Assembly: GCA_029975295.1 (NCBI GenBank)
Contig: JARKPK010000081.1
Location: forward strand, 1-58,782
Length of the DNA: 58,782 nt
Reading direction: 5' to 3'
Source of the DNA: Thermoguttaceae bacterium
Lineage (GTDB): Bacteria; Planctomycetota; Planctomycetia; Pirellulales; Thermoguttaceae
Both the position numbers and the translations under genes were made by a program. This document shows, piece by piece, positions 14,052-17,045 of this stretch (position 1 is its first letter; every line of letters begins with the position of its first letter). The notes under the pieces are model-generated. The model made no database searches and was not told the DNA's origin. It was given only the letters and a program-made list of their open reading frames with translations.

Positions 14052-14080
14052 TTGTCAGTCCGGGGCGAAAACGCTACAAT
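14052..14080 (+). promoter_or_regulatory. Putative sigma70-type promoter of the LuxR-type gene
   Basis: TTGTCA at 14052-14057, a 17-base spacer and TACAAT at 14075-14080, five of six matches in each box. It is among the best promoter matches seen in the window. It implies a roughly 210-base leader before the ATG at 14298. The stretch 13861-14051 upstream holds no supported gene. Confidence 0.6.
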
Positions 14081-14614: not shown

Positions 14615-16582
14615 ATGAACTCCTTCGACGACGCACCGATTTCTGAGACCATTCCTCCCGAGCTGCGGGAAGAGATCGACGAATTGCTCGACGTCTTCGA
14701 GCGCGACCGCCAAGCAGGCGGCGCGGCGCCGATCACCGCCTTTCTCGACACCATTCCCCCTGCGTTGCGGTCGGCCGTCTTTCGCATTCTGCTTCGGGCC
14801 GAGTGCGAGTACCTAGCCGATACGGATCGCCTTCCCGACGTGTCCTCTTATTTCGATCGGTATGGCGAGTTTAGCGCGGTGTTGCGAGAGGAGTTTCGCT
14901 GCGAAGACGAGCCGCAAGGCCCGCGTTCGCGTTCAGCCGCGGCGTTGCGCACCGAGTTCACCCCCGATGGGTCGTTGGAGGCAGAGTCGCACCAGCCGCG
15001 CCGCGTTGCTGCAAAAGCTACCGAATCGCTTGATGGGAAGTCGCAATCGGGGCCACTCGCTCAACGGGCGCCGATTCGGCGCCTACGAGAATCGCTCCGA
15101 GTAGCCATCATTGGCGGTGGGTGGGCCGGATTGGCCGCTGCCGTCGCCGCCGTCGACCAAGGGCTTGATGTCGAGTTGTTTGAAGCACGAAGCCGATGCG
15201 GTGGGCGCGCCGGGCTGTCGCTCACGCTTCCCGACGGCCGCGAAGCCGACTTCTGCCGGCACTTGTCGTTGGGCTGTTGCGTCAACTGGCTCGACGTGAT
15301 CGAGCGCACCGGTTGCGCAGAACTGCTGCTGCCGCCCGACGGAACCTATCGGTTCGTTTCGCGCGATGGTCGGCCCCACAATTTTTGCGCCGGACGGATG
15401 CCGTCACCGCTCCACCTGGCGCCGGCTCTATGGGCCCGAACCGACCTCCCGCTTTCGAGTCGCTGGAAAATCGGCACGGCAATCATGCGGCTGGCCCGAA
15501 GCGGCGGCAACACCGAGCAATCATTCGCCGCTTGGCTCGCCGAACACGGCCAAGATTCGCAAACCATCGCCGGCTTCTGGGCGCCCGTGGTTCTCAGCGC
15601 GCTTGGCGACGACGCAGAGCATGTTTCGCAAGCGGCGGCCCGTCAGGTGTTTGTCGATGGTTTGCTGGTTTCTGCTGAAGCGGGCCGGATGATCTTCGTC
15701 CGGCGAACCATGGGCGATGCGATCGGGGCCGTAGTGCGCTGGCTCGAGGCGAAAAAGGTCGTTGTTCGTCAAAGAACCGTCGTGCAATCGATCTGGCCGA
15801 ACGGAAACGGGGTCTCCGTGGCAACCGGAGCCGGCATCGGGCATTTCGATTATGCCGTCTCGGCGGTGCCGTGGTGGCAAGCCGAACGATTGATTCGTCT
15901 CCCTGATCCCTCGTCCGCGCACGAAGGGGCCCGAGCGATTCTCCGACGGGCGACTGAACTGCCGGTCGGGACGATCGCCGCTGTTCATTTGCTCTATCGC
16001 CGCCGCTGGACAAAGTCAGCCCACGCCGTGCTAATCGACCGAGTGGGGCAATGGTTCTTTGCCGAAGCCGATGATCGGGCCATTCCGCCCGGTCCGACAA
16101 CTGTTGCGCCGCCGACAGATAACGGCAACGTGGCTCTGCCGCCCTCAAGCATCAATGGCGGCGAGGGGCGAAGCGACGGACGTGATGGAACGGGACACTA
16201 CCAAGTCGTTATCAGCGGCTTGCATCGGTTGCCGACGCTGACGGATGCGGAACTCATTGCCAAAGTCCGCGGCGAGTTGGCCGCCATTTGGCCCGACGAG
16301 GCCCAATCCGGCTTCATTTTCGGCCGCGTCGCGCGCCACCAACGAGCAATCTTCGTGAGCGGCCCGGGCGTCGATCAGAGGCGTCCTTCGGCCAAGGCAT
16401 TCAGCGATCGCCTTCTGTTGGCCGGTGATTGGACCGCCAGCGGCTGGCCCGCAACGATGGAAGGCGCTGTCCGCAGCGGACGCCTGGCCGTCGAAGCCAT
16501 CTTGGAACATCTTGGACGTCCCGCATCGCTGTTGTCGCCGCAGTTGCCCCGAAGTTGGTTGTTTCGCCTTTTGTTCGGCTGA
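14615..16582 (+). CDS. hpnE: HpnE-like hydroxysqualene dehydroxylase with planctomycete kinase-associated N-terminal module
   Basis: A 655-residue protein from ATG 14615; TTG 14561 would add 18 residues overlapping the luxR-type gene. Residues about 17-94 (ELREEIDELLDVFERDRQ, ITAFLDTIPPALRS, ILLRAECEYLADTDRLPDV, YFDRYGEF) resemble the acidic helical module that precedes Ser/Thr kinase domains in planctomycetes. A low-complexity linker follows, then an amine-oxidase-type FAD domain from residue 162 (VAIIGGGWAGLAAAV, ARSRCGGRAGLSL), ending with LLAGDWTASGWPATMEGAV. The latter two blocks match HpnE, which converts hydroxysqualene to squalene in the HpnCDE route. HpnC and HpnD are not in the window. 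The fusion is unusual; the N-terminal assignment is from memory of the family pattern. Confidence 0.78.
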   Translation: MNSFDDAPISETIPPELREEIDELLDVFERDRQAGGAAPITAFLDTIPPALRSAVFRILLRAECEYLADTDRLPDVSSYFDRYGEFSAVLREEFRCEDEPQGPRSRSAAALRTEFTPDGSLEAESHQPRRVAAKATESLDGKSQSGPLAQRAPIRRLRESLRVAIIGGGWAGLAAAVAAVDQGLDVELFEARSRCGGRAGLSLTLPDGREADFCRHLSLGCCVNWLDVIERTGCAELLLPPDGTYRFVSRDGRPHNFCAGRMPSPLHLAPALWARTDLPLSSRWKIGTAIMRLARSGGNTEQSFAAWLAEHGQDSQTIAGFWAPVVLSALGDDAEHVSQAAARQVFVDGLLVSAEAGRMIFVRRTMGDAIGAVVRWLEAKKVVVRQRTVVQSIWPNGNGVSVATGAGIGHFDYAVSAVPWWQAERLIRLPDPSSAHEGARAILRRATELPVGTIAAVHLLYRRRWTKSAHAVLIDRVGQWFFAEADDRAIPPGPTTVAPPTDNGNVALPPSSINGGEGRSDGRDGTGHYQVVISGLHRLPTLTDAELIAKVRGELAAIWPDEAQSGFIFGRVARHQRAIFVSGPGVDQRRPSAKAFSDRLLLAGDWTASGWPATMEGAVRSGRLAVEAILEHLGRPASLLSPQLPRSWLFRLLFG

Positions 16583-16894: not shown

Positions 16895-16990
16895 AATGAG
16901 GGGTCCCTGCGATGGAGGCCTGTGAACCTGGTCAGGGGCGAAAGTCAGCAGCCATAAGCAGTTCCCTTCAGGTGCAGTGGGCCTCTCATT
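16895..16990 (+). ncRNA. ffs: Small bacterial signal recognition particle RNA (4.5S)
   Basis: A 96-base hairpin RNA that scaffolds Ffh for co-translational targeting. The ends pair over about 16 bp (from AATGAGGGGTCC at 16895 with GGGCCTCTCATT ending at 16990, with G-U pairs and one bulged U). The apical part holds the conserved SRP domain IV: CCTGGTCAGG, then GCGAAAGT, then CAGCAGCCATAAGCAG. These match the E. coli blocks GGTCAGG and AGCAGCC. The tetraloop is GAAA rather than the common GGAA, still a GNRA loop. There is no Alu domain. Location just upstream of dnaX is a known neighbourhood of bacterial SRP RNA genes. Confidence 0.9.
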
Positions 16991-17045
16991 CGCCGCCGTT
17001 TCCGCGTCTTCCGATTGTCGCACCTTGCCGGCCATCGCTTCGCCC

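Follow-up and report, generated by a model that had tools for sequence, protein, structure and literature searches.

The window, that is, the whole stretch of 58,782 nucleotides analysed here, is an entire contig (JARKPK010000081.1) of a 5.0 Mb Thermoguttaceae genome, assembled in 190 contigs and rated 99.99% complete. It carries a gene in which an N-terminal helical module, of the type found ahead of Ser/Thr kinase domains in planctomycetes, is joined through a linker to a complete HpnE hydroxysqualene dehydroxylase domain (Table 1). One single reading frame spans both halves and each of them matches its own profile, as the initial annotation had claimed when it placed HpnE and a kinase-type module in one frame. 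The frame is open upstream of the preferred ATG as far as a TTG codon, which is the less likely start, and the Met-Asn beginning that the ATG provides is also present in several kinase modules. The gene that precedes the fused gene is predicted to encode a LuxR/GerE-type DNA-binding protein and has a sigma-70-like promoter match ahead of it; its stop codon overlaps the possible TTG start (TTGA), a pattern of translationally coupled genes. On the downstream side lies dnaX, beyond a bacterial small SRP RNA (window 16897-16991) situated between the two genes. A conserved place of hpnE beside dnaX was considered and rejected, none of 29 other dnaX loci having HpnE in the flank, which covered at most about 1.5 kb.

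Table 1. Features of the fused gene and its upstream region in the window, with the HpnD-HpnE fusions of other Pirellulales loci.
Feature	Position	Strand	Remarks
Sigma-70-like promoter match, upstream of the GerE-type gene	14052..14080	+	consensus match only
LuxR/GerE-type DNA-binding gene, 88 aa	14298..14564	+	50 bases separate its end from the ATG
Possible upstream TTG start, 673 aa	14561..14614	+	stop of the preceding gene overlapped by four bases
Whole fused gene	14615..16582	+	ATG 14615, stop ends 16582, 655 aa; the ATG is the preferred start
N-terminal helical module, residues 1-103, pre-kinase type	14615..14923	+	kinase-only HMM; predicted helices
Linker, about residues 104-161	14924..15097	+	no family match, no in-frame ATG; boundaries approximate
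HpnE hydroxysqualene dehydroxylase domain, residues 163-631	15101..16507	+	TIGR03467; 48/54 strongly conserved positions kept
HpnD-HpnE fusion	L175:433-2934	+	one open frame
HpnD-HpnE fusion	L178:1489-3948	-	one open frame
HpnD-HpnE fusion	L182:1489-3900	-	one open frame
HpnD-HpnE fusion	L183:883-3786	+	one open frame
HpnD-HpnE fusion	L185:1292-3661	-	one open frame
HpnD-HpnE fusion	L188:1689-4472	+	one open frame

The C-terminal half matches TIGR03467 over the whole profile (E=9.5e-98; 328.3 bits against a curated cut-off of 283.05; residues 163-631, profile positions 1-430 of 430), in agreement with the earlier proposal of an FAD enzyme of hydroxysqualene dehydroxylation. In an alignment with 75 relatives, where conservation reaches 95% or more in 54 columns, this half keeps 48 of these positions, with all positions of the FAD motif retained and the C-terminal block intact, and alters the other six (P362, L366, W460, D462, V579 and T609). 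Among the relatives the median number of altered positions is one and the maximum is six, reached by a locus (L053) that is doubtful as HpnE, followed by five. The fused HpnE is the sole one found in the genome, the other homologue being a distant one, a protoporphyrinogen oxidase. Judged from sequence, the fused protein is most likely the hydroxysqualene dehydroxylase of this cell, and the chemistry of HpnE is likely to be kept.

The N-terminal half was assigned with an HMM built from the 24 kinase modules of the second genome scan, the window copy being left out. This kinase-only HMM scores the N-terminus of the fused protein at 31.1 bits, whereas the best of 10,000 shuffles reached 10.5, and the fused ORF alone stands out when all 815 six-frame ORFs of the window are scored (E=2.5e-7; next 2.2). 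The shuffles and the scoring of the six-frame ORFs rule out a chance similarity, and the initial annotation, which recognised here the segment that precedes planctomycete Ser/Thr kinases, was thus borne out. With a pooled profile of 40 kinase modules, scored by leave-one-out, the window module obtained 47.7 bits, with two kinase copies below it and 38 above; therefore it is a member of the family, but a diverged one. It lacks five of the nine columns conserved at 90% or more (C25, W32, P38, L55 and R67) and keeps four (F28, E29, L59 and Y79), in an alignment (A5) that includes the window row itself. No Pfam-A or NCBIfam family scored above cut-off for the window module, nor did any Pfam-A family for four kinase copies of it, and no solved relative was found by sequence. 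Helices are predicted at residues 15-33, 40-44, 49-69, 76-82 and 84-93, and the AlphaFold2 model of the module is all-helical (mean pLDDT 81; pTM 0.69). When compared with the PDB, this model gave a best E of 2.4 in Foldseek and a best Z of 5.6 in VIA-align 2 (rmsd 4.3, 85 aligned). Such a Z is usual for common arrangements of helices, and there is no convincing fold match, a result that speaks against no family. As to the kinase domain, neither Pfam-A nor NCBIfam revealed a kinase family in the fused protein, and the part of the ORF covered holds no catalytic motif; the protein is not classed as a kinase.

The module is frequent in planctomycete kinases. Comparison of the fused protein with 60 genomes, its own included, gave three module-only matches (query 8-102, 17-106 and 7-114), all of them in kinase ORFs. 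A profile of the module (A1), built with the window copy among its members, matched in 29 of the 61 family genomes searched (own included), with 62 rows in all; once the window and three rows that repeat a place already counted are set aside, there are 58 module places, every one of which was read. Fifty-six belong to kinase genes, the other two (L202 and L217) being cut by contig ends. A kinase catalytic motif lies behind the module in the same ORF at 30 places and at 23 of the remaining 28; also counted among the 56 are L215 and L218, where the contig ends inside an apparent kinase N-lobe (judged by eye), and L213, where the kinase lies in the next frame downstream of the module. These calls rely on a loose motif, and Pfam confirmed the kinase domain in the two that were tested. 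At L213:413-979 (+), with the next frame from 723, the module-kinase gene is split by a frameshift, either genomic or of the assembly. Four kinase modules, used as queries against genome contigs, yielded 24 loci, a set that overlaps in part with the 58 places; the titles of all these records name planctomycetes, and 23 have the motif while one is cut by the contig end. In its own genome the module occurs in one kinase, on contig C82 (E=7.3e-5 in the profile search); two weak matches from the search with the single module sequence were not recognised as kinases and were taken as chance. Tandem double copies of the pre-kinase module occur at L202:2-730 (-) and also at L219, L220 and L222. An ECF-like gene ends within 500 bases upstream in 13 of 27 module kinases (flanks read by eye, of 31), four out of four of these genes tested matched Pfam Sigma70_ECF, and in the second module set a pattern search placed such a gene within 600 bases in 8 of 24. 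Ser/Thr kinases are named among the modes of ECF sigma factor regulation in a review (PMC8103513). The regulator gene upstream of the fused gene parallels these ECF genes, a likeness that is suggestive only. No known function of the module in kinases was found.

The remaining genes of the squalene route lie elsewhere in the genome. The search for hpnC and hpnD that the initial annotation had advised recovered both, side by side on contig C102 and separate from the fused gene. HpnC is above its curated cut-off, as is a squalene-hopene cyclase on contig C64; for the hpnD ORF, taken stop-to-stop, no family scores better than HpnD, whose 252.9 bits nevertheless lie under the cut-off of 278.6. The genome also encodes, besides the C64 cyclase, a 697 aa protein with cyclase-like repeats (G000:C40:14691-16541; PF13243 matches over the cut-off). 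Behind the hpnC-hpnD pair no hpnE or remnant of one was seen on C102; comparison of 12 kb of this contig with the HpnE of eight relatives and that of the window returned weak matches only, the best (E 0.006) inside an oxidoreductase gene that follows hpnD. At 1e-20, 48 of 119 family genomes gave a match, and at 1e-30 the figure for the order was 196 of 396 genomes, the own genome being counted in both. We read 78 non-window HpnE loci of Pirellulales, a selection formed mainly by best matches with some unusually long frames. In none of them does the HpnE ORF carry the module, and no such ORF is cut by the locus edge, so that the count of HpnE fusions which had been recommended produced no second case at these loci. 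A weak module match at L053 (E 0.05-0.2) lies in a separate 70-residue ORF. In 68 of the 78 loci hpnD ends within 700 bases upstream of hpnE on the same strand, nine have hpnD not adjacent and one has insufficient flank. Therefore, hpnE stands apart now and then, and the kinase module was seen joined to it only here; of the genomes listed, none is kin to this one at genus level. Searched with the full fused protein, neither genome contigs nor viral contigs yielded a relative.

It is very improbable that the fused protein does not exist, owing either to an assembly join or to translation from a TTG codon behind the module. The genome is a draft and TTG codons do occur at residues 111 and 121, but a random join would keep the frame one time in three, the GC content of the module by codon position (0.68/0.43/0.73) is that of a coding frame, and the module lies at the ORF start, as in kinases. 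The initial annotation had allowed for translation truly beginning near residue 140; any start behind the module was rejected, for no in-frame ATG lies between residues 2 and 261, and TTG or GTG codons of the front region occur only at residues 24, 51, 76, 89, 90, 111 and 121. An in-frame ATG precedes the FAD motif by 6-38 residues in 63 of the 78 other loci, and the 15 loci without one within 60 residues include four of the six HpnD-HpnE fusions. Since the HpnE half, unlike that of the 63 loci, has no ATG in front, it seems to have lost its own start, as expected for a settled fusion. The module-HpnE gene fusion looks real and lineage-restricted. A different objection is that, since the move, the HpnE half acts on a new substrate or is inactive, squalene being made otherwise or absent. 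In a tree of 59 HpnE domains (the window and 58 of the 78 other loci), the end branch of the fused HpnE is the longest of all rows, 1.7 against a median of 0.43, while its position is without support, the bootstrap having not settled. Its mean identity to 11 relatives is 0.38, the lowest of 12, the others averaging 0.49; for HpnC and HpnD of the same genome the values against the same relatives are 0.56 (others 0.60) and 0.47 (others 0.48), so that of the three genes only the fused one is unusually diverged. In addition, the altered W460 and D462 belong to a motif that at least 95% of the 75 relatives retain. Against a change of enzyme, the protein is still 45 bits above the HpnE cut-off, every FAD-motif position is kept, and HpnC, HpnD and the cyclase are present while the genome has no other HpnE that could be found; we regard such a change as unlikely. 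The HpnE may have been transferred from another phylum. A closer HpnE elsewhere in its own phylum, as a sign of transfer, was looked for among 392 genomes (own included), and the one other match at 1e-55 (5.7e-61, 36% identity) was weaker than the best matches within the order.

We consider it probable that this gene arose by relocation of hpnE and capture of the 5' end of a kinase gene, and that its product is a squalene-making enzyme with a module that likely binds protein. According to this proposal, hpnE would have moved out of the hpnC-hpnD-hpnE cluster, still present in most of the relatives read, and landed behind the 5' end of a Ser/Thr kinase gene, so that the fused gene would now use the start codon and the N-terminal helical module of that gene. 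The FAD domain would convert hydroxysqualene to squalene, from which the C64 cyclase could make hopene, and the module, as a small protein-binding domain, could place the enzyme on a partner also bound by such kinases. The single frame, the identity of both halves, the distance from hpnC-hpnD, the occurrence of hpnC, hpnD and the cyclase and the divergence peculiar to HpnE are observed; squalene synthesis by the fused protein and relocation plus capture as its route are inferred, and docking by the module is a guess. The proposal is weakened by the occurrence of the fusion in one genome only, by the divergence of module and HpnE and by an HpnD below its cut-off. It is quite conceivable, although we would not favour it, that the module is a passive relic, hpnE having taken over both promoter and start from a kinase gene in decay, so that a plain HpnE carries a functionless leader. 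The unusual divergence of both halves fits this as well: most of the strongly conserved module columns are lost (5/9), the window copy ranks low among module copies, HpnE is changing faster than HpnC and HpnD, and the 78 loci hold no second genome with the fusion. Nevertheless, the helical pattern and F28, E29, L59 and Y79 are retained and two kinase copies score even lower; this is weak evidence against a relic, since an in-frame leader would be shielded from stops and frameshifts anyway. More doubtful is the stronger form of the relocation and capture proposal, in which the module acts as it does in kinases and attaches HpnE to a partner in signalling, perhaps a kinase or a helix-turn-helix regulator, so that the planctomycete kinase network positions or switches the making of squalene and hopanoids. 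The tie of a hopanoid precursor enzyme to a signalling or docking module that the initial annotation had suggested is likewise conjectural, the module having no family name, no solved relative by sequence and no convincing fold match. Since both halves have diverged, the evidence leans to relaxed constraint or a changed role.

In this genome, the final step towards squalene has a new location, new company and a new evolutionary rate, which is not so for the two steps before it. That the module also occurs on an enzyme other than a kinase suggests that it can move as a unit, and the fusion is a way to ask what the module binds without a kinase in the way; if docking were true, it would be a natural bait revealing the module as a transferable docking domain. 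The catalytic family, HpnE, is already known; what is new is its fusion with a kinase-associated module, seen in one genome, and we found no published description of it among the titles and abstract openings listed, with few subscription journals covered. Squalene and C30 carotenoids of planctomycetes have reportedly been the subject of a study. The fused protein is like the HpnE (TIGR03467) of the HpnC-HpnD-HpnE route in its full-length match and FAD motifs, and its genome in having hpnC, hpnD and a squalene-hopene cyclase; it differs by about 160 additional residues at the N-terminus, module and linker together, by a gene apart from hpnC-hpnD and by being the fastest-changing of the HpnE compared. 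With planctomycete Ser/Thr kinases that carry the pre-kinase module, often behind an ECF sigma factor gene, it shares this module at the protein start and a DNA-binding regulator gene just upstream, but it is without a kinase domain, its partner is a lipid enzyme and the upstream gene is GerE-type, not ECF. Fusions of hpnC and hpnD are reported in some Acidobacteria and other bacteria (PMC5462960). The fused gene resembles these, and the HpnD-HpnE fusions, in that an enzyme of the squalene route is joined in one frame; there, however, the partner is an enzyme of the same pathway, and here it is a kinase-associated module. HpnD and HpnE share one open frame at 6 of the 78 Pirellulales loci, and the L178 frame matches both profiles, with HpnE passing its cut-off and HpnD falling short of it.
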